A stretch of DNA of 20,983 bases from a virus, in IMG/VR virus record IMGVR_UViG_3300025127_000350, positions 1 to 20,983 of that record; one strand, 5' to 3'. The position numbers were made by a program, and so were the translations under genes. The notes under the pieces are model-generated. The model was not told the DNA's origin. It saw only the letters and a list, made by a program, of their open reading frames with translations, and did no database searches. Below, piece after piece: positions 1,107 to 16,397 of the stretch; within the stretch, counting starts at the first letter, position 1, and the number at the start of each line of letters is the position of its first letter.

Positions 1107-1686
1107 TTACAACAAACTCATCAAGATTTTCTACCATTATATCATAAAATTCATCTTTTGTCTTCTTTTGTTTTACATCCTTGATGTCAAAGAATACATC
1201 CATAATACCTATAAGTTGACCATACTGTTTCTTTAAGACACCATTAATCTTGGTGCGATTCTTTGCTGATATTACATCATCATAACCACCTACCGTTCCA
1301 TCTTTTTTAAATCTTGGTGCAACTCTTGGCAACACACTCACAAATAATACTTTCTCTAAATTTAATTCTGGTGCAAATGCTATTCTTGCTGCTTCTCCTA
1401 TGGTTGTGTTAGCATAGTTTTTGATATTTTTATTTACATTACTATTCATTGCTTTTGCCAGTATGCAAACTTTCAATTCGCCATCAATATTGAAACCCGC
1501 AATATCAATATCAAATGTACCTCCAAAGGCATCGTTAGATAGTTTATATTCAAATTTCCAATCTAAATCATTCCATTGAGGATTCTTTACAAGGATTTCA
1601 TTTAATAGTACATCATGCAAGTCATCGGTTCTCTTAGATGATCTCACATTCTGAAATGATGTTTGTAAAAATTCTGGTAATTTCAT
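1099..1686 (-). CDS. Uncharacterised protein with PD-(D/E)XK nuclease-like pattern
   Basis: No close family was recognised. The ATG at 1686 gives 195 residues. A TTG four codons upstream (1698-1696) has an AGGA four bases before it and is an alternative start. The core resembles a restriction-endonuclease fold: an acidic strand FDIDIAG (Asp59, Asp61), a turn NIDGE, then a second strand KVCILAKA (72-79) and a polar NSNVNKN stretch. In active PD-(D/E)XK enzymes the second strand carries (D/E)-X-K; here it is Leu76-Ala77-Lys78, so one metal-binding acidic residue is replaced. The gene overlaps the methyltransferase by 8 nt in the same direction, the arrangement expected of a type II restriction-modification pair. 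It may be an active variant, an inactive relic or a DNA-binding partner. The gene is confident; the nuclease assignment is tentative. Confidence 0.6.
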   Translation of the reverse strand: MKLPEFLQTSFQNVRSSKRTDDLHDVLLNEILVKNPQWNDLDWKFEYKLSNDAFGGTFDIDIAGFNIDGELKVCILAKAMNSNVNKNIKNYANTTIGEAARIAFAPELNLEKVLFVSVLPRVAPRFKKDGTVGGYDDVISAKNRTKINGVLKKQYGQLIGIMDVFFDIKDVKQKKTKDEFYDIMVENLDEFVVNE

Positions 1687-1706
1687 GGGATCTGTCAATT
1701 AATCCT

Positions 1707-1712
1707 ATTATA
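1707..1712 (-). promoter_or_regulatory. Possible -10 element upstream of the nuclease-like gene
   Basis: A perfect TATAAT is read on the minus strand at 1712-1707. No good -35 hexamer lies 16-18 nt upstream. If used, transcription would begin near 1700. That would remove the AGGA in front of the TTG start and favour the ATG at 1686. Confidence 0.25.
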
Positions 1713-1742
1713 GTGCATGTACATTTCCCTGCAATAGCATGT

Positions 1743-1788
1743 GTGTCACTATGTCAACTGACACAGTTAACACGAGACAATCTGTCTC
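1743..1788. repeat. Cluster of short inverted repeats in the 1687-1903 intergenic gap
   Basis: Three symmetric elements lie within 46 nt. GTGTCA at 1743-1748 pairs with TGACAC at 1759-1764. Nested inside, TGTCA at 1752-1756 pairs with TGACA at 1759-1763 across a two-base centre. GAGACA at 1774-1779 pairs with TGTCTC at 1783-1788 across three bases. No T-tract follows on either strand, so an intrinsic terminator is unlikely. The position upstream of the nuclease-like and methyltransferase genes fits an operator or a processed RNA hairpin. Nothing else clear was found in the rest of this gap. Confidence 0.45.
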
Positions 1789-1903
1789 AAAGTGAGAGAA
1801 GTAAGAATCGTATTATTCTACGTCTGTTTATGACCTCTGCACCATCCCTTCAAAAAATTTATAGTATCTCCCGAACAAACCATACAAAGGTATGTATGTA
1901 AAA

Positions 1904-2998
1904 TCAAAATTCTACACCATCTTTCCAATTATTAAAGTTTATTTTTTTCCATTGACCATATTTCTCAGGATCATTTTTTTCATCACTTATCATTTCATAA
2001 AATTTGTCATCAGGATTAAATGGTAGAGACTTAGCATATTCCCAGAATGGTGTGTCATACTTCGAACCATATTGATAATGCCACAATATAATGTTTTCAA
2101 GTTGTTTCATATTTGTTTTTATTTTCTCATTACAATAGTCAACTGTTTGTATCTTAAAAATTGCATCCCACGATTGCCTACAAATGTACTGATAAAATGC
2201 AACTGCTGTTGCTTCCATCGGTTCAATAAATCCATACATGTTGCCCTGCAAGATAGTTCTTTCGCCAACATAAAAATTCTTTGCTCTATAATTTTCAAAC
2301 TTTAATTCATCATTTATCTCGTCAATTTCAAATCTTTTGACAAAATCAATGATCGCATCCTCTCTGTCAGTTATTGTGTCATTGAATAAGTATCCATAGG
2401 ATACACTATCTTGATTTGGAATTACAAATGTCCATCCATTTGGTGTTGCAACTGCCTTTGTGTAAATTAAATCAGTATCTCGCCCTTTCTTTTTTGACAA
2501 GAGAACACTATTCAAAGGATTGACCAGTGATTCGTAATTACTCCTATCTCGATTATGTCTTCCTCGACAATCAAAAATTATATCAGCATCAATTTCTTTC
2601 TCAGGATTAATTATATTTTTCTCGTAGACCGTAAATAAATTAGATTCTAGTACCCTCTCAGATAATTTTTTAGGTACGAAGTGCATCGCAATATTAGGCA
2701 TTTCAAAGGGATGAAATATTTTATCATTTTTCTTTCCCCAATTCTCGTAGAGTATACCTGACTTAAATGTTGCTCCTATCTTATTATCATACCAATTCAT
2801 TCCTATTGTTGAACCGATCAAATCTAAAATAGGTAGTGTTGTTCCTTGACCTACTTTTTCAATTGGATGTTCATCTGGACTGTGATAAATTGATATTTCA
2901 AAACTGTCGCAGTTTTTATCCTCTATAAGATATTTGTAAAAGTGAAGAGCAGTGATGCAACCTGCATTTCCTGCACCAATTATCGCTATTTTAATCAT
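1904..2998 (-). CDS. FAD-dependent tryptophan-halogenase-like protein
   Basis: Flavin-dependent halogenases use FADH2, oxygen and chloride or bromide to halogenate an aromatic ring such as that of tryptophan. The N-terminus IAIIGAGNAG (residues 5-13) is the GxGxxG dinucleotide-binding turn. VGQGTTLPILDLIG (49-62) matches the conserved segment after the FAD strand. GATFKSGILYENW (75-87) places a lysine at residue 79, the family's catalytic lysine position. The halogenase signature WxWxIP appears as WTFVIP (189-194), with the second Trp replaced by Phe. GFIEPMEATA (256-265) matches the segment holding the catalytic glutamate, here Glu262. At 364 residues it is much shorter than bacterial tryptophan halogenases (about 500 or more), the loss being mainly C-terminal and in loops. 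It has its own promoter and is divergent from the oxygenase operon. The substrate is unknown, and other flavin oxygenation chemistry cannot be excluded. Confidence 0.85.
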   Translation of the reverse strand: MIKIAIIGAGNAGCITALHFYKYLIEDKNCDSFEISIYHSPDEHPIEKVGQGTTLPILDLIGSTIGMNWYDNKIGATFKSGILYENWGKKNDKIFHPFEMPNIAMHFVPKKLSERVLESNLFTVYEKNIINPEKEIDADIIFDCRGRHNRDRSNYESLVNPLNSVLLSKKKGRDTDLIYTKAVATPNGWTFVIPNQDSVSYGYLFNDTITDREDAIIDFVKRFEIDEINDELKFENYRAKNFYVGERTILQGNMYGFIEPMEATAVAFYQYICRQSWDAIFKIQTVDYCNEKIKTNMKQLENIILWHYQYGSKYDTPFWEYAKSLPFNPDDKFYEMISDEKNDPEKYGQWKKINFNNWKDGVEF

Positions 2999-3017
2999 TT
3001 ATTTTTTTCATAATTTA

Positions 3018-3046
3018 ATTATATCACTTTAAACTCACTTTGACAA
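3018..3046 (-). promoter_or_regulatory. Sigma70-type promoter of the halogenase gene
   Basis: On the minus strand, TTGTCA (3046-3041, 5 of 6 to consensus) is followed after exactly 17 nt by a perfect TATAAT (3023-3018). Transcription would begin near 3010, giving a leader of about 12 nt to the ATG at 2998. Its -35 overlaps the -35 of the opposite promoter. Confidence 0.7.
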
Positions 3047-3067
3047 GTAACATATATATGCTATAAT
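3040..3067 (+). promoter_or_regulatory. Consensus sigma70-type promoter of the 2OG oxygenase operon
   Basis: A perfect TTGACA at 3040-3045 and a perfect TATAAT at 3062-3067 are separated by 16 nt. Transcription would start near 3074, giving a leader of about 15 nt before the ATG at 3089. The -35 shares five bases (3041-3045) with the divergent halogenase promoter. Confidence 0.75.
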
Positions 3068-3079
3068 ACCATTAATGGT
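3068..3079. promoter_or_regulatory. 12-bp perfect palindrome over the oxygenase operon start site
   Basis: ACCATTAATGGT reads the same on both strands. It sits directly after the TATAAT and spans the expected start point, a typical place for a repressor dimer site. It could also be a chance palindrome of the AT-rich leader. No other copy was noticed in the window. Confidence 0.4.
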
Positions 3080-3088
3080 TGATTATGT

Positions 3089-3676
3089 ATGTCTGATAAA
3101 GGTAATGATCGAATTACTGATTTTATAATTCGATATGAAAAAATATTTACAAGAGAAGAGTGTCGTCAGTTGATTGAAAAAATTGATTTTTATGATGATA
3201 ATGCATTGCTTTATCCTCAACCTGACAATAATAAAATATTTCAAGATCAAGATGCAGTAAATGTTTTCTCTACGTCTGATTTAACTTTACCAGAATCATC
3301 TTTCATATGCGATCAAATTTTTCCAAAGATCAATCCATGTATTAAGAATTATCTTGATAGATTTCCACTACTAGGAAGAAGAAAATTTTCAATACATGAT
3401 ATTAAAATAAAAAAAATAAAATGTGGTGCAGGATTTCATCAATGGCACTATGAGAATGGTTATGTATATGATGTTCGTAGAACATTTGTTATACAAATCT
3501 ATATTAATGATGATTTTGATGGTGGTGAAACAGAATTTTTATATCAAAATAAAAGAGAGAAGGCAGTTGCAGGTGATGTTTTAATATTTCCCTGTCAATA
3601 TACTCACGTTCATAGAGGTAATCCACCAATAAACGGGGATAAATATCTCGTAACCTCTTGGGCTTGGTTGCAATAA
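3089..3676 (+). CDS. 2-oxoglutarate/Fe(II)-dependent oxygenase (prolyl-4-hydroxylase-like), first of three
   Basis: This 195-residue protein has the double-stranded beta-helix core of the 2OG-Fe(II) oxygenase superfamily, which couples 2-oxoglutarate decarboxylation to hydroxylation of a substrate. The facial triad appears as HYE (His120, Glu122) and THVHRG (His175 the likely third ligand), with Lys185 in GDKYLVTSW ten residues later as the 2-oxoglutarate anchor. The DGGETEFLY turn (144-152) and AGDVLIFP (161-168) are classic for P4H-like domains. The first acidic ligand is Glu instead of the usual Asp. There is no signal peptide or membrane segment, so it should act in the cytoplasm. It is the first gene of a three-gene operon behind a consensus promoter. 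The ribosome binding site is weak. The substrate is unknown: a protein proline, a phage structural protein or a small molecule. Confidence 0.85.
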   Translation: MSDKGNDRITDFIIRYEKIFTREECRQLIEKIDFYDDNALLYPQPDNNKIFQDQDAVNVFSTSDLTLPESSFICDQIFPKINPCIKNYLDRFPLLGRRKFSIHDIKIKKIKCGAGFHQWHYENGYVYDVRRTFVIQIYINDDFDGGETEFLYQNKREKAVAGDVLIFPCQYTHVHRGNPPINGDKYLVTSWAWLQ

Positions 3677-3680
3677 TAAT

Positions 3681-4346
3681 ATGAAAGAAAGATTAGAAGC
3701 AGAATTATTCGTAGAACCATTTCCATTAATGGTCGTTAATAATTTTTATAATGATTTTGAACTCGCATTAATATGGCAAGAATTAATGTTTTACACTGCC
3801 CCTAATAAACTTCTCGCAGCAGAAAATTATGGTGGGGTAGTTGGTAAAACAAATGCAAAAGCATTAGTACTTGATGATATATACATCAATCATAGTAAAA
3901 CTAAGGAAGATGGTATAAATTTTAGAAATTTATCGAATATACTTACTGTCAATCGTAAACTTTTTAGATGCGGTGTGCTTGAAAAGTTTTCCGAACTTCA
4001 TGGTTGCACTAGCATAGCAACTAAATCAAATCACGACACTACTAAAGTTAGATATTATCATAATAATGAATATTACGATCCTCATACAGATAGTTCTACA
4101 CAATTTCTCGCATTTTCATATTTTTATAGAGAACCTAAAAAATTTAAAGGCGGTGATTTAATTTTCCCAAAGTATGATTTCAAAATACCATGCAACAATA
4201 ATACAATGGTCATCTTTCCAGGTTGGGTGGAGCATGGCGTAAGAAAAGTCACAATTGAAGATTCTGATTATTTTGATGGGTGGGGAAGATACGCTATCAC
4301 ATCATTCTTTGGGTGTAAGTATAGGAATACTTTATCGGCAAAGTAA
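3681..4346 (+). CDS. 2-oxoglutarate/Fe(II)-dependent oxygenase, second of three
   Basis: This 221-residue oxygenase keeps the canonical HxD...H...R set. HTD lies at residues 135-137 in YYDPHTDSST, the distal His185 in GWVEHGVRKV, and Arg203 in GRYAITSFF. The KGGDLIFPKYDFKIP segment (156-170) matches the GGxLxFP strand of the superfamily. The N-terminal 110 residues vary most and probably shape the substrate pocket. It differs from its two neighbours by having Asp in place of Glu in the triad and Arg in place of Lys as the anchor, so it is not a recent duplicate of either. The ATG lies 4 nt after the stop of the first oxygenase and lacks a clear Shine-Dalgarno, so translational coupling is likely. 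The substrate is unknown. Confidence 0.83.
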   Translation: MKERLEAELFVEPFPLMVVNNFYNDFELALIWQELMFYTAPNKLLAAENYGGVVGKTNAKALVLDDIYINHSKTKEDGINFRNLSNILTVNRKLFRCGVLEKFSELHGCTSIATKSNHDTTKVRYYHNNEYYDPHTDSSTQFLAFSYFYREPKKFKGGDLIFPKYDFKIPCNNNTMVIFPGWVEHGVRKVTIEDSDYFDGWGRYAITSFFGCKYRNTLSAK

Positions 4347-4347
4347 G

Positions 4348-4908
4348 GTGCATCTTAATTATATTGCAATTTATGAAAATGCTCTCTCAGATGATGAGTG
4401 TGACTTAATAATTGATGAATTTGAAAAAGAAAAACAACTACATCATAAAGGATGTAGCGGTAATGGTCGGGTAAGGTCAACAACAAAAAAATCTACTGAT
4501 ATCACATATAATATCAACTCTGACTGTTTAACCTCACAAATCATATCAGATCATTTAGAGGATCATGTCGAGAAATATCTGGTGCAATATCCTGATATAA
4601 ACAATTATATAAAACAATGGCATTGTCTTTCTGATTATAACATTCAAAGATATTTTCCTGGTGAGGGTTTTTATAAACCTCATTGTGAAAATTGTGATAA
4701 GGAAAGTTCTTATCGTGTTCTAGTATGGATGTTTTATCTTAATGATGTTCCAGACGGTGGAACTTTATTTCCAACACTTGAAGTGGGTATTAAGGCAAAA
4801 AAAGGTAGATTAGTCCTTTGGCCATCTTATTGGACTCATGTTCACATGGGTCAAATTAGTCACACACATATGAAATATATCGCAACAGGTTGGTTTGGGT
4901 TTATTTAA
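4348..4908 (+). CDS. 2-oxoglutarate/Fe(II)-dependent oxygenase (prolyl-4-hydroxylase-like), third of three
   Basis: From the GTG at 4348, one base after the previous stop codon, the protein has 186 residues and begins with the P4H-like strand-helix IAIYENALSDDECD. This is why GTG is preferred. The frame is open further upstream, to an ATG at 4276 and a TTG at 4255, but that part overlaps the previous gene and does not look like the family. The triad is HCE (His112, Glu114) with THVHMG (His166), and the anchor is Lys176 in MKYIATGW, the same H-to-K spacing of ten as the first oxygenase. DGGTLFP (136-142) is the core turn. It resembles the first oxygenase more than the second, including the Glu ligand, which suggests an old duplication. 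Its end overlaps the convergent structural gene by 4 nt, leaving no room for a terminator. The substrate is unknown. Confidence 0.8.
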   Translation: MHLNYIAIYENALSDDECDLIIDEFEKEKQLHHKGCSGNGRVRSTTKKSTDITYNINSDCLTSQIISDHLEDHVEKYLVQYPDINNYIKQWHCLSDYNIQRYFPGEGFYKPHCENCDKESSYRVLVWMFYLNDVPDGGTLFPTLEVGIKAKKGRLVLWPSYWTHVHMGQISHTHMKYIATGWFGFI

Positions 4909-5951
4909 TAAAAAATAAATTGTCTTCCACCTTCTCCACCAGGTTTCGCATTATCATTGGTAGGTCCTCTGGGTGAGTTAGCACCAGCAGCACCATTAGA
5001 ATCTGAATTTGCGCCAAGTATTTCACCACCTTCACCACCATCTCCACCTTGTGCTTCTTCGTCATCCCCACCTTCGCCAGGATTTCCACCACGATTTTTC
5101 TCACCAACTTCACCATTAGAACCACTATCACGACCTGATCCACCTTCACCACCATTACCAGCAGGAAATCCTCGACCTCCTCCTCCTCCACCGCCACCAG
5201 CAGAGTTTGGGTCTCTCCAATCATCTTGTTCACCACCTGCACCACCACCGCCTCCGCCACCACCAGCGACGATACGATTTGTAGGAGAGTTAGATGATTC
5301 AGTTATTGCTTCTCCATTTACGATTGTTCCACTTATTATCTTCATCGCACTCGATCCTTTACCACCAGCAGTTGCTACATTATTATTTGAGTTTGCTCCT
5401 CTTCCACCATTTCCTCCTTTTCCGTAAACTCTCCCATTAGTACCAACATCAACAAATAAATCTGTTGAATTTGGCCAACCAGCCGAATTGGTATTATTGT
5501 TGTTATTACCTGTTCTTATTGCCACATCATCCTTATCAGAAGCACCTGATGACCCAAAGTGTTTATTAATATGAATTATTACTTTCTTTCCACCTTGCCA
5601 TCCTGACTTAGGTATAGAAGTTCTATCTGTACCACTTTTATTTCCTACTACATCGTATCTGTTATTATTAAAGGCACCAGTATATACATCAAAATTAGCA
5701 CTCGTATTAGAGTTAGTGCCATTACCATATACATTACTATATAAGTCTACTACTATGTTTGCTTGCTTACCATAAAATTGACTGAATTTTATAGGACTAT
5801 TTCCCTGAGGAATACCACTATCTAATGGTAAATTATTTAAATCACCATAATCCTCTGATACCCTATAATTACCTAGTTTGTTACCTGTTGGATTCCCAAA
5901 CTCTGTTTTAATATCGTTATATGAAATTGCTCCAGAATTTTGTAATGCCAT
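4905..5951 (-). CDS. Glycine-rich virion protein, probable gp38-like distal adhesin
   Basis: The 348-residue protein begins MALQNSGAISYNDIKTEFG and has SPIKFSQFYGK at 52-62. This N-terminal module, typical of small virion proteins in marine T4-like phages, probably attaches to another fibre. A polar, Asn-rich segment spans about 70-170. From about 172 the chain is dominated by glycine, with runs at 230-240 and 252-259 and many G-G-x and G-E-G-G units to residue 342, ending in aromatic FIFY. Such patterns resemble the polyglycine-II sandwich of gp38-type adhesins in T-even-like phages, in which variable loops between glycine strands bind the host receptor. It is the last gene of the structural block, directly after the fibre genes, the usual place of an adhesin or fibre assembly factor. 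Function is inferred from composition and position; a collagen-like decoration protein is the alternative. Confidence 0.7.
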   Translation of the reverse strand: MALQNSGAISYNDIKTEFGNPTGNKLGNYRVSEDYGDLNNLPLDSGIPQGNSPIKFSQFYGKQANIVVDLYSNVYGNGTNSNTSANFDVYTGAFNNNRYDVVGNKSGTDRTSIPKSGWQGGKKVIIHINKHFGSSGASDKDDVAIRTGNNNNNTNSAGWPNSTDLFVDVGTNGRVYGKGGNGGRGANSNNNVATAGGKGSSAMKIISGTIVNGEAITESSNSPTNRIVAGGGGGGGGAGGEQDDWRDPNSAGGGGGGGGRGFPAGNGGEGGSGRDSGSNGEVGEKNRGGNPGEGGDDEEAQGGDGGEGGEILGANSDSNGAAGANSPRGPTNDNAKPGGEGGRQFIFY

Positions 5952-5954
5952 ATT

Positions 5955-8216
5955 TTATGCCACCGTTGCGAGACCTACCCAACCATTTCCATCGTAAAGT
6001 TCGAGTCTATTTAGTGTGGTATTATATAGCAACGCACCAGTAACTGTTGAACCACCACCAAGACCACCATTCCCAGATCCATCATACATAAGATTTCTTT
6101 GAGCAGTTGTTACCTTAGGTGGAATCATGTAAGCAATTTTAGAACGATCTACTGGCCAACTATATCCTCCCCCTTGATCAGGAACATTGACAACATCAGA
6201 GAAGTCAACTGCTGATTTTGGAACTACTGAATTTCCGACTAAAACACTACCAGCATGAATACGAATGTCTCCATGAACTGTAATACGATTAGATTCTACA
6301 CCTGTTAATGCAGTGGTTCCAACTCCTACACGACCTTCATCATTTATGAATAATTTGTTGTGTGTAGTGCCATCACCACCAGTATTCAATCCTGTTGGAT
6401 TAACAAATAATAATTCACCACCATTTCCTGTGCTTCCTATACCAATAATATTTTTTATCTCCAAAGTATTAATATTGTTAACACCACTTGTTGAATTGAC
6501 ATTACCAGTCAAATTACCAGTCAAATTACCAGTTACATTACCAATGAGATTACCATTAAGAGGATTATTCAAATTGAGAGTATCAATGGTAACATTACCT
6601 GACATATTGACTGCACCACCAATAGTTGCTCCCCCAACAACTTCAAGTGCTACTGCTGGTGTTGTGACTCCTATTCCTAAACTACCACCAATACCTGTCA
6701 AAGTCATCAAAGCATTAGATGCTTTATGCCATACGAAATCCCCAGTGCGATCTGTGCCACTGTCTTTTAAATTGTTGATGTTGAGGAAGTAATTGAAATT
6801 ACCTGTGTCATTATTCAATATATTTAAAGATCTTCTGGTCATAAATGCGTTCACACCAGATTCATCACCATAAATTAATGCTGCATCATGTGTTGATAAA
6901 CCAGATGTACCCCCATTTAAACTTCCTATTTTTAATGTATTACTTACTGATACACCAGCTCCGATTGTATTGAAAACCTGAGTGCCACTTTGTAATAATC
7001 TAACCACATTAGAACTCGCAGAATTTATCTCAGTCGCAGTTAATCTACCAGTCAATGTAGATACTCCTGTGACATTGAGTTGATTTAGAGTTGCACCAGC
7101 ATTTGCATCTATCGCATCATTAAATGTTGATATACCAGTTACATTAAGATTGGTAGTATCTAATTGATTGAAAATCGTAACACCGACTCCGGATGTCATC
7201 AATCTAGGAGAACCATTATAACTTAAGGTTACGTCTGCTACTGTACTTCCAATTCCTACTGCTTCCTTGTTAGCGACTTTCATTGAGAGAGTGCCATGTC
7301 CAAATATATCTAAACCCTTTGGTCCATTTTCACCCACTGAATATCCAAACTGAATCTGCCCTCTTCCTGCACCTGTCCCGATGGATTCACTATAGAATCT
7401 AAGATAATTACTAGGTTTACCAAACCTAACTTGAGTCATAGGTTCAATATACAAATGTCCTCCAGTGTAGACCATCGATGATGGGAATAAGGAATTTCCA
7501 TTGTACACTGCGAACTTACCTGGTACATTATCTTCTTCAGACTGTGGTTTACCAAACCTAACAAAATCCTTGAACTGGACATTATCACCAAATGTTGATA
7601 CACCTGCTACTTCTAGTCCATTTGCTTGTATCAAACTGGTGCTTGTTGAAATACCAATAAATGTTGAAACACCTGATACTAATACATCATCAAATGAAGA
7701 AGAATTAGACACACTCAGTGTATTAGCAAAGAGATCAGATATTGTTGTTATACCTATAAAAGTAGATGGTCCGGTAACTCTCACATCACCTAAAACATCT
7801 AATGTGAAGTCGGGGAATTTACCAGTTTGAATACCTAGTCCACCTACATTATCACTTCCTATCCCAACAGATGATGTGGTTGACAGTGTTCCTGATAATT
7901 CTTTGAATCCAGCAGTGGCGATTGCCACGACATTTGTAAGAGTTGAACCATCACCAATATATTCAGTCGCTGTGATCCTTCCTGACCCACCATCAAGTTT
8001 TATCGCACTGTTTATACCAACTGTAATTCCTGTGCCAACTTCGACGTTGGTAGAATTTAATGTTCCAGAAGAATTTATATTACCCTCTACATCTAGTATC
8101 TGAGTTGGTATCGTGCTTCCAATACCAACTAACCCAGTATTCGGTTTAACAATTAACTTATTATCATCAACCTGTAAACCATTTCTGAAATTGAATGACT
8201 TCGAAAAATTTGCCAT
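5955..8216 (-). CDS. Tail-fibre-like structural protein (753 residues)
   Basis: The start MANFSKSFNFRNGLQVDD is a common opening of marine T4-like fibre proteins. It is followed by a GIGSTIPTQILDVEG segment typical of trimeric beta-structured fibres. The body is low-complexity beta repeat rich in VGIGST, TGVSTF and TGNLTGN units, and the C-terminus (GGGSTVTGALLYNTTLNRLELYD) forms a final beta module. There is no S74 chaperone and no enzyme motif. It probably forms part of the long or short tail fibres and would be a trimer. Translation is supported by AAGG about 5 nt before the ATG. The next gene (glycine-rich adhesin) starts 3 nt after its stop codon, which suggests that the two are made together and that the adhesin may cap this fibre. 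The exact T4 counterpart cannot be assigned by eye. Confidence 0.8.
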   Translation of the reverse strand: MANFSKSFNFRNGLQVDDNKLIVKPNTGLVGIGSTIPTQILDVEGNINSSGTLNSTNVEVGTGITVGINSAIKLDGGSGRITATEYIGDGSTLTNVVAIATAGFKELSGTLSTTSSVGIGSDNVGGLGIQTGKFPDFTLDVLGDVRVTGPSTFIGITTISDLFANTLSVSNSSSFDDVLVSGVSTFIGISTSTSLIQANGLEVAGVSTFGDNVQFKDFVRFGKPQSEEDNVPGKFAVYNGNSLFPSSMVYTGGHLYIEPMTQVRFGKPSNYLRFYSESIGTGAGRGQIQFGYSVGENGPKGLDIFGHGTLSMKVANKEAVGIGSTVADVTLSYNGSPRLMTSGVGVTIFNQLDTTNLNVTGISTFNDAIDANAGATLNQLNVTGVSTLTGRLTATEINSASSNVVRLLQSGTQVFNTIGAGVSVSNTLKIGSLNGGTSGLSTHDAALIYGDESGVNAFMTRRSLNILNNDTGNFNYFLNINNLKDSGTDRTGDFVWHKASNALMTLTGIGGSLGIGVTTPAVALEVVGGATIGGAVNMSGNVTIDTLNLNNPLNGNLIGNVTGNLTGNLTGNVNSTSGVNNINTLEIKNIIGIGSTGNGGELLFVNPTGLNTGGDGTTHNKLFINDEGRVGVGTTALTGVESNRITVHGDIRIHAGSVLVGNSVVPKSAVDFSDVVNVPDQGGGYSWPVDRSKIAYMIPPKVTTAQRNLMYDGSGNGGLGGGSTVTGALLYNTTLNRLELYDGNGWVGLATVA
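6501..6560. repeat. Five tandem 12-nt units encoding GNLT/GNVT repeats
   Basis: Five consecutive 12-nt units begin ATTACCA on the plus strand at 6501, 6513, 6525, 6537 and 6549. The first two are identical and the others diverge. In the minus-strand fibre gene they encode the L-x-G-N-V/L-T-G-N tetrapeptide series near residue 560, a fibre shaft repeat that can change in length by slippage. Confidence 0.8.
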
Positions 8217-8229
8217 TATACCTTTTTAG

Positions 8230-11200
8230 TTATTTATCTGAGATTTGTTGTTGTAAATCATCGACCTTATTATTAAGTTCTTTAATTGCCTCGATGAGAA
8301 GAGGAACCAATTTTTCATAATCAACTGCCTTGTAACCAGTTTTCTTTCTAGTCTTAACCAAACCAGGTAAACCAAGTTTTTCAATTTCTTGAGCAATAAC
8401 ACCAGTTCCAGAATCTTCTTTTTCTGACTCTTCAGTCCAATCAAATGTATATCCACCGATTGAAAGTACTTTTGCTAATGGATCATCAATTTTCTTAATG
8501 TTCTTCTTCAATCTTTCATCAGATGAGTGGAAGGCAATAATATCACCATCAACTCTCAATTCTTCTGTGCTTGGTTTATATTGTAAACCCGCTGTTTGAT
8601 CTGCCCTTAGAAAAGCATCCACTTCATTCGCATTAGTGCTATCTAATGTAGTTCGTGTGAATACTATATTGTGATATGTCGAAGAAGTACTTTCTGATTT
8701 AACATCAACTGTGTTAGCGTTTGCCGCAAAACTCGCTTCTCCTGTAAGATCACCAGAAAATGTTCCTGTTAAAGTCGTGCCATCAAATGTTAAATTTGCA
8801 CTATCTTGTAATGCACCACCAGCACCAACTGTAACGACACGACCTGATGTTAAATCTTCAACCTTGAATGTACTACCTGTGGAAACTATGCCACCTCCGG
8901 CCATTGTTGTAATGCCAGTGATGTTTAATCCACCTGTAATATCTATTCCTGAAACAGATGTCTGTAAACGAGTTACACCATTATGATACAATCTGACGTG
9001 TCCAGCAGAGTGATCCAATAACATAAAGTTTTCACCAGATGATTTCTCAAAAATCATCTGATTTCCACCAATTCTAAATCTTAAATCGTCATGACCACTG
9101 TGTTGTATTCTACTTCCTCCATTTGTTGATGGATCATGGAAGATTTTAAGATCAGCGTCATCACCAAATCTAAGTTCTGCATTATCAGCAAATTGTGAAT
9201 TTTTATTGACACCAAATCCACCATTAAGAACTAATGATGCGTCAGTTGGACTTGTTGCTGGATCAGCATTTTCAATCTTTAATGTTCCCTCTACTACAAG
9301 TTTATCTTTGATTCTTGCTTCTTCATTAAATGTAACAGGACCGTCAAACTGTGATAGAATCTGACTTGAAGCTCCACCCTCAACGACAAGTCTCTCTTTA
9401 ACAGTAACTTCATCAAATACAACACTTAATCTTGATGGATCTTCACCTGTCACACTTGGAACAGGAGTATCAAATGTAGTTTCCTCACCAGTAAGTGATG
9501 ATTTCTTTTGGTTTCCAATATAGAAGTCACCCTTATCATTCATACCTGTATATACAACAGCACCTGATGATTTTTCTAATGCTTGTGATAAGAATTCTTC
9601 TTTTTCAGATAATGATACTGTTTGTAATTGTGGTAATGCTGTGGAATAGTTACCAGGACCATATCCAAGATATTCAAATGTATGACCTGATGCTCTTAAA
9701 ACAGAAGGTCTTCGTAGTTCTATCGCTATTGGTTTGATTTTTCTAGCAAGTGATCCATTATCATGACCTTCAACTCTCGTACCGAGTGCTCCTCTTATCA
9801 CAAAAATTTCATCAGTGGCAGTCATATTTGACTGACTAATTCTCATAATCTCATTATCAACCTGAATATATGAACCATATGAGAATCTAGACATGGTTCC
9901 AACACCTGTGCCTGGTAGTCCTACTTTTAACTTATTTGATGTTGTAAATGAATTGATGAACAATATTTCATCATCAAATAAATGTGAACCTCGAACACTT
10001 AAATTTTCATCAGCAGCATCTGATGATTGATCGTTTGCAGATAAGTTATGTTTTAATACTCTCGCATTAGGTGTGCTTGCATTTAATACTGTTCCAGAAT
10101 TAGGATCTTTAACTTGACCAACAACTGAGAAAGAACCAACACTTGATACAGATTTGACAGTATACTCACCATAATTATAATATGGACTTGCACCACTTGA
10201 ACTTACAATTTGAACTCTATTACCTGCTGCTAAACCATGTGCACTTGATGATTGAAGTGTTGTGATGCCCGTAGTCGATGAAGGTAAAATCGCAGTACCA
10301 ATAGCAACACTGTGACCAGCAACAAATGCATATTGGAATGGAATTACATCTGGATCATTACTTGCTTGTTCAATTTGAATTTGAGTCTTTGATGGAACTG
10401 ATACAATTGGGAAATATCCGCCAGCAGTCGTACCAATACCAGTTATTTGAAGATAGTTTGATGTTGATGGAGACAAATGCCTTGAATCAACGACTAATCG
10501 AGCTTCACCATTACCACTGGAATTTAACCCTAAACTAGATGTATCAAAGTATAATTGACCAGTAGATATGCCTGATCCCTTTGAAACAATATCAACTGCT
10601 GAAACACCATTAGAGGATACAGTGACATTTGCTGTTACACCATTCCAAGAACTTAGACCACTTTCATTGAAAAGTCTGACATTATTAAATGTACCATCAG
10701 TATAACCTGATCCTGCTGTTATTATACCAGTGACTGCACCCGAAATTCCATGCTCTCTTGAAAATGTTATTGTTCGTTTACCAGAAGATAGTGCACCAAC
10801 ACTTGCGATACTGATACCAATACCAACATCAGTCATTAATTTATCAACTGTTTCTCTGGTTATACTTTTCTTTAAATCATTTGTTGTAACTTGTCCAAGG
10901 GGAAATCTATTTGCAAATGTTTTACTTGCATCAGGATTATCATTTGGATTGTCCCGATCTAATTGTGGATATAAATCAGAGACGTTCTGACCAAATTTTG
11001 AATCAGTAAACTCGATTGGCACAGAGTTTCCTGAGTTTAAAGGATAGATGTGGAATATACCATCTTGAACACCATCTTTGTAGTCAGATATTTTTTCATT
11101 ACGATAAGCATAGATGTTCGATTGTAAATTATTTCTCTCAAATCTTGGTAGATTTACAGTTTTAGTATTGAAGTCATTAGTGACAGTCGCAGCAGGATTC

Positions 11201-13959
11201 CTACCAGGATTATATTTAAACAACATGTCATTAACAATACTAGTCACAGTATGAGTTCCATTATATCCACTAGACCCTGCACCTACTGTATTAATATCAG
11301 GATTAGTGCTATCAGTTATATTTTTAATAATTACAGAATCACCAACTTTTAAGTTATGTGGCAATTCAGTTCTAACGGTTACATTAGGTTCAGAATAAGA
11401 AGCATGACTTATGAATCTTGGATTTCTGTTATACTCATAATCACCATTATCATTTTTCTTCTCTAATGGATCGTTAGCACTCTTTCTTGTGAAGTCTGCA
11501 TCCGTACCAAAACCTGTTGTGCTTGACTCTTGAATAATAAAACCATTCTCAACATTCTTGGATCTTTTTATTTCCTTTGGAATTACAACACGTAATTTAT
11601 ATATTTTATCATCTATCTTTCTTGCATCATTCACTCTCTCAATAAATGTGGGTTCAGTCCTAGCACCTATTCCTGCAACACCAAGTGTATTCATTGTGCT
11701 GTATATTTCATTACCTGCATTTGTAACGACAAACCAATTATTATTAGATGAGTCAAACTGTATTGGATGTCCAAGATCACCAACATTTTTTTCAGATACT
11801 CGACTTAATATTGAAATTTCTTCTCCACCATATACATCTAATGGAACTCCAACAGCAGCATCGGCTGCTGTGCTTGCAAGTTGAATTTGTGAACTTGATA
11901 ACGTGACTGAATCTGTACGAACAGAGTTTGCCTCACTTGTGATAGCAAAATATACAACATTACTTTCAACATTCTCAGGTAAATCACCTGTTCCACTTTG
12001 AATTATAACCTTCTCACCGTTTAATAAAGAATGTCCACTTACTGTAAAAATATTATTGACAGGGGCAGAGGCAGAAATTGTTTTTGCTGAAGTTGAAGTG
12101 CCATCTGCCATCAAAATATCAGCAGTCTTACCTGTTCCTATTATCACAGATAATTTATCATTTTTTTGAGCACCAACTCTAAATCCCTGAGTGTTTGCTG
12201 CTGGTTTAATATCTTTTGAATTAAATCCAAACAAATATAAATGAGTGTTAATACCAACTGCTGTTGTCAAACCAACATCAAGGGTCACCCAGTCGATTTT
12301 ATCCTTAGATGATGTTAATGCTCTTGGAGTTATTATATTTGTAATGAAAGCTTTATCATCCTTTTCAAATGCTTCTTTCTTGAATCCATCGGAAACAAGT
12401 GCCAACTGACCAAAGTTAGAGTTAGAGTTGGTGATTGAGGCATCACCACCATTTATCGCAGCAAAGTGTTTATTGTATCCAATCGCAAACACTGAAACAA
12501 CCTGCATGATTGCATCGTTAGTAATCGTGATATGGCAGTTCTCCCAACCTTTTCGATAAATTGCTTTTGGATCTAAATGATAGATTGTTGCAGGATTTGT
12601 TGATGATGATTTAGTTGCGAGTTGTCCACCATCTGTTTTAGTAAAGGAAATTCCATCATAAGAACGATTTACCTCATTATATTTGACAAATGCACGATCG
12701 TCTTTTTGAAGTGAAACACCAGTGAACTGGGCAACAACCATCGAACGGAAACCAGTTGCTTTGTTTCCATCTGCTTTCATTCCATTCAATCCATATACAG
12801 ATCTCATAGAAATATTGAATACATATGGTGAAGCACCAGATACAGTATCAGTTTCGACAACTACGCTACCATTTGTAGAATTACCAGGTGTTTGTAAGTT
12901 TGCATCAAATGATGGTAATAGATATGTAAATGTCTTGGTATCAACAACAGTAGCAACAAGAGTTGAAATATTATATGCCTGTGGAGATACACCACTTATT
13001 TTTATCGGTGTATCTGTTGTGAGTTTGTGTGCTTTTTTAGTAATAACAGTAACAACGTTACTTAGATCTGTTCCATCTCCTGCCTGAATTAATGCAATTT
13101 CAATAGGATCTGCTGCAAATGCTCCAACTATCTCAAATTCAGGTCTTTTTGGTTCAAATCCCTGTGGGTTAGTTGGAAATCTATCTAATACGTCAATTGG
13201 ACGAGTTGATGATTCATTATATGCGTTTGATAATTTACCATAATACATTTCCAAATCGGTCAAACCTGTGGATGTTGTATTCACACCATCAGCATATTCA
13301 AAGATTGTTAATTTATGATGAGAAAATGTTGCGTTTGCTTTATTACTTCCAGTTAAATCTGTTGGGTCTGTAAATACCTCTCCTTTACCATCAAAACAGG
13401 AGAATTGCCAAAAATAACAAGTACCAGTAATTCGGAATATTGCTGATGCTGCTATGTCATCATCAGTTGGATTTGGCACATATAAAGGTCTTACTTTTGT
13501 TTTTCTTAAATCTAAACCTACAATTGATGTACCACGAGGAACTATGACTCCACCTTCTACTGAGTTGAATTTAAATAAAACATTATCAGGGTCAGATAAA
13601 TCAAAATTAGTATTCAAATTTAAATTTAAAGTATCACTATCTTTAACTGTGCCATTTGAATCTATTAATTGATATGACGATGCTCCAACTGATTTAATCG
13701 AAAAACCTGGTCTATTATCTACTGAATGATCGCCAGGCATCAAGAGAATAGTTGTCCTCTCGATCAAGTCGTTAGCATCACCTGTCTGATATGAAAATCT
13801 TGCAGATTCTATCAGTGCTCTCTGTATAGTCTTAAAAGGTCTCGCTAATGAATTACCAGAGTTTGTTATGCTGTCTGTTGCATCTAGATCACTCGGACTC
13901 ACATAAAGGATTCTTCCCTCAGTGTTCTTTATGAAATTATCTAACTTATTCAGTGGCAT
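8230..13959 (-). CDS. Giant tail-fibre protein with C-terminal peptidase S74 intramolecular chaperone
   Basis: The 1909-residue protein opens with MPLNKLDNFIKNTEGRILYV and a segment GNSLARPFKTIQRALIESA that resembles the start of a right-handed beta-helix. The long middle part is beta-rich. Around residue 1080 it has AGSGYTDG-type units, and further on (about 1620-1730) ADLKIFHDPST and VRLYHNGVTRLQ units known from many marine phage fibres. The last 98 residues are an S74 domain: SSDERLKKNIKKID at 1812-1825, then GGYTFDW, GTGVIAQEIEKL and a terminal coiled-coil-like helix (LIEAIKELNNKVDDLQQQ). In characterised S74 proteins the domain drives trimer folding and then cuts itself off before the SD of SDxRLK; here that would be near residue 1812. 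The start has only a weak AAGAAG upstream. This is probably the main long fibre. The receptor is unknown. Confidence 0.88.
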   Translation of the reverse strand: MPLNKLDNFIKNTEGRILYVSPSDLDATDSITNSGNSLARPFKTIQRALIESARFSYQTGDANDLIERTTILLMPGDHSVDNRPGFSIKSVGASSYQLIDSNGTVKDSDTLNLNLNTNFDLSDPDNVLFKFNSVEGGVIVPRGTSIVGLDLRKTKVRPLYVPNPTDDDIAASAIFRITGTCYFWQFSCFDGKGEVFTDPTDLTGSNKANATFSHHKLTIFEYADGVNTTSTGLTDLEMYYGKLSNAYNESSTRPIDVLDRFPTNPQGFEPKRPEFEIVGAFAADPIEIALIQAGDGTDLSNVVTVITKKAHKLTTDTPIKISGVSPQAYNISTLVATVVDTKTFTYLLPSFDANLQTPGNSTNGSVVVETDTVSGASPYVFNISMRSVYGLNGMKADGNKATGFRSMVVAQFTGVSLQKDDRAFVKYNEVNRSYDGISFTKTDGGQLATKSSSTNPATIYHLDPKAIYRKGWENCHITITNDAIMQVVSVFAIGYNKHFAAINGGDASITNSNSNFGQLALVSDGFKKEAFEKDDKAFITNIITPRALTSSKDKIDWVTLDVGLTTAVGINTHLYLFGFNSKDIKPAANTQGFRVGAQKNDKLSVIIGTGKTADILMADGTSTSAKTISASAPVNNIFTVSGHSLLNGEKVIIQSGTGDLPENVESNVVYFAITSEANSVRTDSVTLSSSQIQLASTAADAAVGVPLDVYGGEEISILSRVSEKNVGDLGHPIQFDSSNNNWFVVTNAGNEIYSTMNTLGVAGIGARTEPTFIERVNDARKIDDKIYKLRVVIPKEIKRSKNVENGFIIQESSTTGFGTDADFTRKSANDPLEKKNDNGDYEYNRNPRFISHASYSEPNVTVRTELPHNLKVGDSVIIKNITDSTNPDINTVGAGSSGYNGTHTVTSIVNDMLFKYNPGRNPAATVTNDFNTKTVNLPRFERNNLQSNIYAYRNEKISDYKDGVQDGIFHIYPLNSGNSVPIEFTDSKFGQNVSDLYPQLDRDNPNDNPDASKTFANRFPLGQVTTNDLKKSITRETVDKLMTDVGIGISIASVGALSSGKRTITFSREHGISGAVTGIITAGSGYTDGTFNNVRLFNESGLSSWNGVTANVTVSSNGVSAVDIVSKGSGISTGQLYFDTSSLGLNSSGNGEARLVVDSRHLSPSTSNYLQITGIGTTAGGYFPIVSVPSKTQIQIEQASNDPDVIPFQYAFVAGHSVAIGTAILPSSTTGITTLQSSSAHGLAAGNRVQIVSSSGASPYYNYGEYTVKSVSSVGSFSVVGQVKDPNSGTVLNASTPNARVLKHNLSANDQSSDAADENLSVRGSHLFDDEILFINSFTTSNKLKVGLPGTGVGTMSRFSYGSYIQVDNEIMRISQSNMTATDEIFVIRGALGTRVEGHDNGSLARKIKPIAIELRRPSVLRASGHTFEYLGYGPGNYSTALPQLQTVSLSEKEEFLSQALEKSSGAVVYTGMNDKGDFYIGNQKKSSLTGEETTFDTPVPSVTGEDPSRLSVVFDEVTVKERLVVEGGASSQILSQFDGPVTFNEEARIKDKLVVEGTLKIENADPATSPTDASLVLNGGFGVNKNSQFADNAELRFGDDADLKIFHDPSTNGGSRIQHSGHDDLRFRIGGNQMIFEKSSGENFMLLDHSAGHVRLYHNGVTRLQTSVSGIDITGGLNITGITTMAGGGIVSTGSTFKVEDLTSGRVVTVGAGGALQDSANLTFDGTTLTGTFSGDLTGEASFAANANTVDVKSESTSSTYHNIVFTRTTLDSTNANEVDAFLRADQTAGLQYKPSTEELRVDGDIIAFHSSDERLKKNIKKIDDPLAKVLSIGGYTFDWTEESEKEDSGTGVIAQEIEKLGLPGLVKTRKKTGYKAVDYEKLVPLLIEAIKELNNKVDDLQQQISDK
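8231..8238 (-). promoter_or_regulatory. T4-late-like promoter candidate before the 753-residue fibre gene
   Basis: GATAAATA on the minus strand matches seven of eight bases of the T4 late motif TATAAATA. It lies 15-22 nt upstream of the ATG at 8216, just before an AAGG ribosome binding site, and overlaps the last codons of the preceding fibre gene. That coding overlap (Asp-Lys-stop) could produce it by chance. Confidence 0.35.
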
Positions 13960-14005: not shown

Positions 14006-14032
14006 AAAAAATTAATCATCATGGAGTGATGA
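14006..14032 (-). terminator. Weak intrinsic-terminator-like hairpin after the tailspike gene
   Basis: On the minus strand, TCATCA pairs with TGATGA (14032-14027 and 14021-14016) across a five-base loop. TTAA follows, then six T residues at 14011-14006. The stem is only 6 bp with two G-C pairs, and it includes the stop codon of the tailspike gene. It probably terminates only part of the transcripts. Confidence 0.35.
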
Positions 14033-16397
14033 AAACTGCTGCCATAATGAAATCCCTATCTTCAAATCCATCATCCACATTCTCAACATAAAGATCAAAA
14101 CGATCTACTGCCATAAACCTAACACTTACTGAGCAATTATGATTATCACCATCATTTTCACCGCTTGTTGCACATACAGTATAATCATTATTTGGATAAT
14201 TAGTTGTAAAATTAACTCGATATTCACCCTCTGCGAGATCACCAACACTGCTAATATTTAAACTATCTCTTATTGTTTTGGGATTTGCCGATCCTTTTCC
14301 GTAAAAATTTACGTATGAAGTAGCAAATACTGCCGAAGTGTTTCCAGCAGCATTATTAATTGCTGGTGGTAACTCACCAGTAAATGTTGCCGATCCATCA
14401 CTTCTAACTTTAAAAGTTTCGGTTCCGATTCCAGAACCAACTATAAAATCATACCTATCAGAGACATCTGTTGCATTTTGTTTTTGAAATGCAAGATAAC
14501 CAACATCTAACGGTATAGCATCCAGTCCGGACTGTTGAATCCTTTGCCTCCATGCAATTTTTAAACCTTCACCAGCACCTAAATTTTGATCACCAATGTC
14601 CTCGTACATGTCTAGGTTTATAATAGTTTTAGGTGTGGTTGCAGTATTACTTGTTGACCTCATATTTGTTTGAAGGGTCATTCCAACAGGTTGTGCATTA
14701 TCATTCGAACCCACTCCACCCCTCACTGGATATGCATATCCAGTAGCAATACCTGCTCCCACCTGAACATTTGGACTTGTTACATAAACGCCAGCTCCGT
14801 CAATTCCATATCCCTCTGTTTCAGTTCTTATAGCATAATTTTGAATAACTCCTCTATATGTACTAGAAGTTTGAGAAAATCTAATTGGATACTTAGGACC
14901 ATCAATTGAAGTAAACCCATCAAGAATAAAAGGTCCGAGCAAACTATCTGAACCATATAAACCATGAATAGCAGTTGAAGCAACTCCAACATTACCAAAA
15001 CCATTTATACTTATATTCTTCATCACTATGTTCCGTAAACCCTGCATCAATCTAATAACACCATTATCATTTTCTGCAAATCCTGTTGAGGGTTCAAAAT
15101 CATTTGCCATGTCAAAACTACTATCACTTACCGTAATGTTAGTCATATGAACAGTATCATAAGATGATACTCTTATACCATAACTTGCATTATATGTGGC
15201 AATACCCACATTATCTGCATCAGTAGCAACAAATTCTCTCGGAGATAAAACCTCAATATTTGACAATTTGATATTTTTTGCATTTGGACTTAAACCTTTA
15301 TCACCTGTACTATTGTCATTCAAAAATCCTAAGTGTTTTGCGTCAATACCTCTGGCACAGTTTATGACTCTTAAACCATCAACTGTTACATTGTAAGGAG
15401 CAGGAGCATAGGTATGACCTTTTATTTGTAGTCCTTTGTTTCCTTTTATTGCAACATTATCTGTCATTGTCACATTTCTACTTCCATCATCAATCTCAAA
15501 ACAGTTAGAATTATTACCTGTTCGAACACCAGAGGGAGTGATGGATCGACAACCAGTGATTAAAATATTTGATGAAAAGTGTGTAGTAATATTATCATCC
15601 CCTGCACCCGATGCAAAACAATTTTCAATTGTAACATACCTTGATGAGTCATTATCATATGTCGTACCATTATTATTATCAGGATATCTTGGGGATGTGA
15701 TGTCGATGCAATGTTTATATCCATCAAGACATCTTACATTTTTTACCAATACATATTCACTAAAACAAATACTTAGGGTAGTTTGATCATTGTCTTGATC
15801 TCCACCACTGAACTCAGTATCTTTAAGAGTTTCACCACCTGATACAGTCCATCGGTCTCGATTGAAATCCAACGTCATATCTCTTATAATGATATTTTCT
15901 CTTTTATTTCCTCTCTTACCTGTTCTCATTAATGTGGTATCCCTACCGACTGTTGATATCATCTTTATAACTGTACTTTCACCATCTCCAAATATGTGTG
16001 AATTACTAGGTATTTCTATTGTTTCACTTACCATGTAAGTTCCTCTGCTTAAATAAACTCTTCTTCCAGATGCTTTGTCTAAGGCATTTTGTATACTTTT
16101 AGTATCGTCAGTGATTCCATCTCCCACTGCACCATAATCTTCTACTGATGTAACATCAGAATCAGACCAAATGACAGATGAGTTTGGTCCAGTGCTCTTT
16201 AAAACTTGACCTTTGATACCAAAATCTGTTCCTGCAATCCCAACTTGACCTAGTTCACCTATGCGAAGTTTTTCATCATCTTTTATTTTCAGAATATATT
16301 TTTCTCCATGATTAACAGAATCAAAAAGATTCACCTTACCAAGAATATCTACATTCTCATTAAACTGAGCGTCGCTGCCTATAATTTCTCCTGCCAT
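14019..16397 (-). CDS. Tailspike-like protein with pectate-lyase (right-handed beta-helix) fold
   Basis: The 792-residue protein has an N-terminal attachment region (1-80) with LRIGELGQVGIAGTDF-type fibre repeats. DYGAVGDGITDDTKSIQNAL at 87-106 follows, the hallmark opening of the pectate lyase superfamily 3 beta-helix, then RRVYLSRGTYMV at 112-123. Regular beta-helix coils with N-ITT, N-I-ITGC and GLQIKG-type turns extend to about residue 520. The last 250 residues form beta-rich fibre-like modules. In phages this architecture often belongs to trimeric tailspikes that bind or cleave capsule or lipopolysaccharide sugars. No catalytic residues can be named from sequence alone. Translation starts at the ATG overlapping the previous stop in TAATG, with GGAGGAG some 13 nt upstream and AGG closer. 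A weak terminator follows. It is probably a receptor-binding or depolymerising spike. Confidence 0.82.
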   Translation of the reverse strand: MAGEIIGSDAQFNENVDILGKVNLFDSVNHGEKYILKIKDDEKLRIGELGQVGIAGTDFGIKGQVLKSTGPNSSVIWSDSDVTSVEDYGAVGDGITDDTKSIQNALDKASGRRVYLSRGTYMVSETIEIPSNSHIFGDGESTVIKMISTVGRDTTLMRTGKRGNKRENIIIRDMTLDFNRDRWTVSGGETLKDTEFSGGDQDNDQTTLSICFSEYVLVKNVRCLDGYKHCIDITSPRYPDNNNGTTYDNDSSRYVTIENCFASGAGDDNITTHFSSNILITGCRSITPSGVRTGNNSNCFEIDDGSRNVTMTDNVAIKGNKGLQIKGHTYAPAPYNVTVDGLRVINCARGIDAKHLGFLNDNSTGDKGLSPNAKNIKLSNIEVLSPREFVATDADNVGIATYNASYGIRVSSYDTVHMTNITVSDSSFDMANDFEPSTGFAENDNGVIRLMQGLRNIVMKNISINGFGNVGVASTAIHGLYGSDSLLGPFILDGFTSIDGPKYPIRFSQTSSTYRGVIQNYAIRTETEGYGIDGAGVYVTSPNVQVGAGIATGYAYPVRGGVGSNDNAQPVGMTLQTNMRSTSNTATTPKTIINLDMYEDIGDQNLGAGEGLKIAWRQRIQQSGLDAIPLDVGYLAFQKQNATDVSDRYDFIVGSGIGTETFKVRSDGSATFTGELPPAINNAAGNTSAVFATSYVNFYGKGSANPKTIRDSLNISSVGDLAEGEYRVNFTTNYPNNDYTVCATSGENDGDNHNCSVSVRFMAVDRFDLYVENVDDGFEDRDFIMAAVFITP

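Follow-up and report, generated by a model that had tools for sequence, protein, structure and literature searches.

Three genes for 2-oxoglutarate (2OG)- and Fe(II)-dependent oxygenases (OX1, OX2 and OX3) and one for a halogenase (HAL) lie beside the gene of a glycine-rich protein, GLY, in the stretch of viral DNA analysed here, the complete 20,983-base IMG/VR record IMGVR_UViG_3300025127_000350 (hereafter the window), the genes of which are of the T4-like marine myovirus type. GLY is supported by its predicted structure as a gp38-type adhesin, and an adhesin or glycine-rich gene was found to adjoin OX2 in 57 of the 58 informative distinct loci of its close relatives. The arrangement recurs beyond this contig and is not its accident, and the co-localisation of oxygenase and adhesin is real and stronger than an earlier reading of this DNA, made from the letters of the window (the sequence-only reading), could know. 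That the oxygenases, at least, modify the adhesin is regarded as the best explanation, with chances of being right that we judge to be about even.

Layout and recurrence of the locus

The sequence-only reading had described a block of four enzyme genes at 1904-5951 next to an adhesin gene with fibre genes behind it, and this layout was borne out by open reading frames (ORFs), family scores and the loci of relatives. Each of the four enzyme genes is intact and lies where it had been placed, in the order HAL (minus strand), a divergent gap of 90 bases, OX1 to OX3 (plus strand) and GLY (minus strand). OX3 and GLY converge tail to tail and have four bases in common (4905-4908), while GLY is located directly downstream of the fibre gene FIB1, on the same strand as FIB1 and FIB2. 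The features are as follows.

1904..2998, minus strand: HAL, compact flavin-dependent halogenase of 364 amino acids (PF04820, PHROG 2928, model fold)
3018..3046, minus strand: promoter-like TTGTCA-17-TATAAT directed towards HAL (consensus match only, 11/12 consensus positions)
3040..3067, plus strand: candidate sigma70-type promoter, perfect TTGACA-16-TATAAT with TG before the -10 element, upstream of OX1 (consensus match)
3089..3676, plus strand: OX1, prolyl-4-hydroxylase-like 2OG-Fe(II) oxygenase (PF13640; joint OX1 and OX3 profile)
3681..4346, plus strand: OX2, 2OG-Fe(II) oxygenase, the most constant adhesin neighbour of the three (PF13640; locus survey)
4348..4908, plus strand: OX3, prolyl-4-hydroxylase-like 2OG-Fe(II) oxygenase with GTG start (PF13640; prolyl-4-hydroxylase profile matches)
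4905..5951, minus strand: GLY, predicted gp38-type tail-fibre tip adhesin (predicted structure against S16 and PP01 gp38)
5955..8216, minus strand: FIB1, fibre or tail protein immediately upstream of GLY (PHROG 3269 tail protein; synteny)
8230..13959, minus strand: FIB2, large tail fibre with S74 chaperone domain (PHROG 529 tail fiber, 1389 bits; PF13884)
14019-16397: pectate-lyase-like tailspike upstream of FIB1 and FIB2, then baseplate-region genes (family matches)

The linkage was followed in the 80 best relatives of OX2 (61-100% identical, 68 distinct), with fibre and adhesin calls made by profiles built in this analysis together with glycine content; 10 loci were uninformative contig ends, eight of them flagged by script and the other two being L074 and L103, whose contigs start 428 and 433 bases before OX1. 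OX2 was codirectional with the adhesin in 24 loci and inverted in 33, and the adjacency has therefore survived at least one inversion or reinsertion; in the sole informative exception (L109) the adhesin adjoins OX1, and OX2 follows 3 kb further. Viewed from the adhesin, a 2OG gene lies at most 900 bases away in 54 of 61 informative distinct loci, and the seven without an adjacent oxygenase include loci of the order FIB2-GLY-FIB1; two additional loci so ordered (L134, L135) carry oxygenase and halogenase just past FIB1. This minority order, with the adhesin between the fibre genes, was seen in L134, L135, L228, L230, L244, L255, L257 and L260, mostly with a halogenase 1-2 kb past FIB1 and in some with an oxygenase there too. 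Three further loci (L077, L078, L087) show two tandem gp38-type adhesin genes adjoining an oxygenase, a pattern that duplication or exchange of a receptor-binding tip would produce.

Cultured phages present comparable arrangements. In 17 cultured cyanophages, the positions of 158 2OG genes were measured from the main fibre gene; the stretch 0-20 kb downstream holds 55 of them against an expectation of 16.9, a count that none of 2000 rotations attained (p about 5e-4, the smallest value that so many rotations allow). HTVC008M displays the layout of the window, in that the fibre is followed by a glycine-rich gene, which the adhesin profile does not pick up, then by a set of four oppositely oriented 2OG genes, and a halogenase is present as well; in S-SSM5 the succession of fibre, glycine-rich gene and oxygenase block is repeated; Syn9 and Syn10 hold the gene of the halogenase VirX1 and a second halogenase between glycine-rich genes of the fibre locus and a run of 2OG genes; and P-RSM6 has a 2OG gene within the fibre run, followed by two halogenases and further 2OG genes. 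Searched with a profile of the adhesin N-terminal part (A5), the cultured phages W01-W06 yielded no homologue; their glycine-rich genes were identified by composition alone.

On the far side of HAL, the window carries a DNA N4/N6 methylase and then a PHROG 21547 gene whose weak match to a model of intein splicing falls below the cut-off (306-1698).

Enzymes and adhesin of the window

The classes of the enzymes are beyond doubt from family scores and invariant catalytic residues. OX1, OX2 and OX3 match PF13640 with E-values of 5.5e-8, 3.7e-8 and 5.2e-12 and PHROG 61 with 1e-40, 8e-20 and 1.4e-40, respectively. All four enzyme genes are under purifying selection, with ratios of nonsynonymous to synonymous substitution (dN/dS) of about 0.08-0.2. 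The start of OX3 is most likely GTG 4348, in favour of which TTG 4255 of the mechanical ORF listing was dropped.

In support of the sequence-only reading, which had compared Pro-Gly steps of the glycine-rich protein with substrates of collagen-type prolyl hydroxylases, OX1 and OX3 resemble peptide prolyl hydroxylases. Their joint profile matched the prolyl-4-hydroxylases (P4Hs) of Bacillus anthracis (E 1e-10), PBCV-1 (4e-7) and Chlamydomonas (1e-5) among solved structures, followed by the procollagen lysyl hydroxylase LH3 (E 0.01), and the OX3 profile matched P4H structures at E 4e-8 to 6e-4. By these profile matches the nearest solved relatives of OX1 and OX3 are P4Hs and then LH3, enzymes acting on peptides. 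With the P4Hs (B. anthracis 3itq/5hv0, Chlamydomonas 2jig/3gze, PBCV-1 5c5t) they have in common the PF13640 fold, the distal His, the 2OG-binding Lys and the Trp six residues on (Lys-x5-Trp), the latter two being present, invariant and aligned with those of P4H. The ligands are HxE, H173 and K185-x5-W191 in OX1 and HxE, H164 and K176-x5-W182 in OX3, and the pattern HxE...H...K is invariant among relatives. An HxD iron triad was not found in either enzyme: HxE stands in its place in 17 of 17 aligned sequences, with the distal His retained. OX1 and OX3 are hence termed P4H-like and not classical P4Hs, because iron would be bound via HxE despite Lys-x5-Trp; this invariant HxE in otherwise P4H-like enzymes (3089-3676 and 4348-4908) is an observation in its own right. 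OX2 possesses HTD (135-137) and H185, but R203 and F209 replace Lys and Trp; its pattern HxD...H...R is likewise invariant among relatives, it yielded only weak P4H matches against solved structures, and it is on this basis classed as a PF13640 oxygenase and not a classical P4H.

Several genes of cultured phages that coincide with PF13640 matches or with the PHROGs of the window oxygenases bear the names DNA endonuclease V, DNA endonuclease or ferrochelatase, namely Syn9 gp51, gp53 and gp54 (L329), HTVC008M gp034 and gp039 (L328), S-SSM5 048 (L326) and P-RSM6 018 (L333). Such names in marine T4-like phages look like propagated misannotations.

HAL matches PF04820 (E 1.4e-34) and PHROG 2928 (E 4.9e-65). 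It displays the GxGxxG motif (GAGNAG at residues 8-13), which does not vary among relatives, as well as K79 (PrnA K79) and E262 (PrnA E346), both of which are invariant in 47 sequences and align with VirX1. The motif WxWxIP was not found; the corresponding residues are W189-T-F-V-I-P, with a Phe at the second Trp position that is invariant in the group, and HAL is therefore considered a compact enzyme of the flavin-dependent halogenase type and not a canonical tryptophan halogenase. Its model (predicted local distance difference test, pLDDT, 93) aligned with AbeH (Z 37.6, 355 residues), MibH (Z 32.8) and VirX1 (Z 29.7), so that tryptophan halogenases are the nearest structural neighbours of the model; MibH, also among the matches, is a peptide halogenase. 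VirX1, the Syn10 halogenase (PDB 6qgm), has in common with HAL the halogenase fold, K79, the active-site Glu and neighbours of fibre, glycine-rich and 2OG type; unlike VirX1, HAL is only 364 amino acids long, about 20-24% identical to it, and lacks about 75 amino acids after residue 102 that VirX1 and PrnA possess. Loci of HAL relatives contained 26 glycine-rich ORFs against 6.1 expected, the background rate being taken from seven genomes, six of which were picked for carrying a halogenase. The halogenase, which the sequence-only reading counted in the island, is not a consistent part of the cassette: many loci with OX2 and adhesin have no halogenase in view and its position varies in cultured phages, so HAL was rejected as an obligate partner. 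Since it is often not seen there and lies elsewhere in several phages, its membership in the cassette is unsure.

GLY gave no family match in Pfam and PHROG searches. Its AlphaFold model, for which 55 homologues served as input, reached a pLDDT of 88.2 and a predicted template modelling score (pTM) of 0.85, and aligned with S16 gp38 (6f45) at Z 17.2 over 231 residues in the range 2-348 and with the receptor-binding domain of PP01 gp38 (9v85) at Z 16.8, the next match having Z 3.4; gp38 proteins were also among the top matches of a Foldseek search against viral models. The predicted structure consists of a conserved N-terminal attachment domain and a polyglycine-rich receptor-binding half, and the order FIB2-FIB1-GLY in the window and relatives puts a fibre gene where gp37 would stand. 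The guess of the sequence-only reading that the glycine-rich protein is a gp38-like adhesin is thus supported, because the predicted structure matches gp38. With the gp38 of S16 and PP01, GLY has in common the predicted fold over its full length, the polyglycine-rich half and the position after the fibre genes, from which it differs in being longer, in the lack of a detectable sequence family and in its oxygenase companions; in the papers found, a pairing of gp38 and oxygenase as a functional unit is not described.

Proposed adhesin modification and competing explanations

On the favoured explanation, the locus would be the tip end of a fibre region to which a cassette for finishing the adhesin is joined. 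GLY, as gp38-type adhesin, would cap the fibre. Ahead of assembly, and still inside the infected cell, it would be hydroxylated by OX1 to OX3, with Fe(II), O2 and 2OG, at Pro, Asn, Asp or Lys residues within or close to its polyglycine loops, which might tune folding, stability or receptor contact of the adhesin. The halogenase would accompany the oxygenases in some phages only and may add a halogen to an aromatic residue exposed on the tip or act on another target. The adhesin as substrate, an altered residue in it and an effect on binding are what we infer. In favour of this explanation count the predicted adhesin fold, the peptide-modifying relatives of OX1 and OX3, the adjacency in both orientations, the operon-like layout of a sister clade, the co-divergence of adjacent oxygenase and adhesin, the enrichment downstream of the main fibre gene in cultured cyanophages and the recurrence of the block in distant phages, as well as, for the halogenase, the excess of glycine-rich ORFs in its loci and the match to MibH.

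Several observations weigh against this explanation. The adhesin has no known modified residue. The Pro-Gly steps NPGEGG and KPGGEGG, put forward in the sequence-only reading as hydroxylase sites, are private to this sequence, for P291 and P337 are each proline in 1 of 55 homologues, and Pro-Gly repeats like those of P4H substrates are absent from GLY, the presumed substrate. The glycine-rich half has a single conserved proline, P263 (GxPxG), which is kept in 53 of 55 homologues; it was rejected as a target because it is kept whether or not an oxygenase adjoins the adhesin. The conserved neighbourhood alone does not show function, since genes for a helicase and for a DNA methylase are repeatedly found close to the block as well. 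OX2 of marine virus AG-345-L05 has no adhesin within 6 kb, a relative in Rhizobium phage Y65 sits among unrelated small genes, and the loci are mutually related fragments picked by similarity, so that counts overstate independence. Enzymes lying mainly away from fibre genes, which the sequence-only reading had named as evidence to the contrary, were not found for the type of the window, but about half of the cyanophage 2OG genes do lie elsewhere.

Timing of expression also has to be considered. Face-to-face sigma70-type matches overlap in the gap between HAL and OX1 (3018-3067), suggesting shared and possibly host-driven control, and the hexamers TTGACA...TATAAT of the OX1 promoter are retained at the same place in 16 of 16 gap-spanning relatives. 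The late-promoter motif TATAAATA was not found in the window, against 2.6 expected. In T4-like phages, sigma70-type promoters serve early genes. The oxygenases of the window clade, with a sigma70-type promoter of their own, may therefore be made early, before the adhesin, which also speaks against the adhesin as target; enzymes present ahead of the adhesin would fit a host target as well as an adhesin one. Divergent control as described in the sequence-only reading was correct, but it points to a promoter of the host-sigma70 type, which taken alone is no argument for a structural substrate made late. A codirectional sister clade differs from the window clade in that the first ATG of the oxygenase ORF follows 20-35 bases past the adhesin stop, and adjacency is accordingly found with an early-type promoter as well as with an operon-like layout.

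As an alternative, the oxygenases could be cargo of a hypervariable host-recognition island: accessory genes would gather at the fibre end as a hot spot of recombination, and enzymes acting on host proteins or other targets would be placed where insertion is tolerated. Host-recognition clusters of pelagimyophages and cyanophages are hypervariable and rich in accessory genes (PMC7029224), the oxygenases have their own early-type promoter, and 2OG genes are enriched 0-12 kb upstream of the main fibre gene too (21 vs 10.0 expected, p 0.017), in the zone where the host-metabolism genes CP12, cpeT and talC share the hot spot. However, a hot spot of 20-40 kb would predict a looser association than the immediate contact of OX2 and adhesin genes, kept in both orientations, in 57 of 58 informative loci, and the divergence of the adjacent oxygenase follows that of the adhesin (matrix test, partial rank correlation 0.37, p 0.001, for the N-terminal part and 0.22, p 0.004, for the glycine-rich part) and does not track the large fibre (-0.15), although physical linkage alone could produce such co-divergence. 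A covariation of 0.65 between OX1 chosen by best hit and the glycine-rich half fell to 0.30 with the truly adjacent oxygenase and is not relied on. On balance, cargo is a rather unlikely explanation of the block.

Quite unlikely, in our view, is that oxygenases and halogenase tailor a host-surface polysaccharide or a small molecule such as a secondary metabolite, e.g., to block superinfection. Decoration of secondary metabolites or capsules was proposed for cyanophage clusters of carbamoyltransferases, halogenase and 2OG oxygenases (PMC7824862), and VirX1 takes many small aromatics in vitro (PMC8407142). Nol-like carbamoyltransferases near 2OG oxygenases fit this idea, that of S-SSM5 (32513-34759, L326) lying between glycine-rich gene and oxygenases and that of HTVC008M (1306-3891, L328) being paired with 2OG genes elsewhere in the genome. 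The window has a halogenase and several 2OG enzymes in common with the published cluster, but neither its core carbamoyltransferase nor a glycosyltransferase or other pathway gene was found beside the block; moreover, many relatives keep oxygenase and adhesin without a halogenase in view, and OX1 and OX3 are nearest to peptide hydroxylases.

That the oxygenases lower or sense host 2OG and thereby alter NtcA or nitrogen signalling, as published for cyanophages (PMC3037559), is highly improbable here, for it explains neither the adhesin adjacency nor three distinct conserved oxygenases. It is hardly credible that the enzymes are remnants with an antioxidant or O2-scavenging role, or genes in decay that lack a specific substrate, given that the ligands of metal and 2OG do not vary and that selection is strongly purifying, even if these phages carry many 2OG paralogues without known function.

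Meaning for marine T4-like phages

Adhesin modification by such enzymes was not found proposed in open-access papers. In the section of PMC3909814 (2014) consulted, Fe(II)-dependent oxygenases are tabulated with gp38 adhesins in 'metaviromic islands' of marine phages and filed under host recognition; both are listed there without mechanism, adjacency analysis or a hypothesis of adhesin modification. For the halogenase, a role in protection from antibiotics was suggested (PMC2984593).

Abundant marine phages carry many 2OG oxygenases and several halogenases, the role of which has been unexplained for more than 15 years and is usually filed as auxiliary metabolism. Tentatively, and with somewhat more doubt than belief, we propose that marine T4-like phages modify gp38-type adhesins via dedicated 2OG hydroxylases, in some lineages with a halogenase, and that the cassette, passed on together with the adhesin, adds a layer of chemistry to receptor recognition. 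If this were true, the oxygenases and halogenases would belong with the virion, predictions of receptors would miss something when based on nothing but fibre sequence, and a natural setting for VirX1 would emerge.

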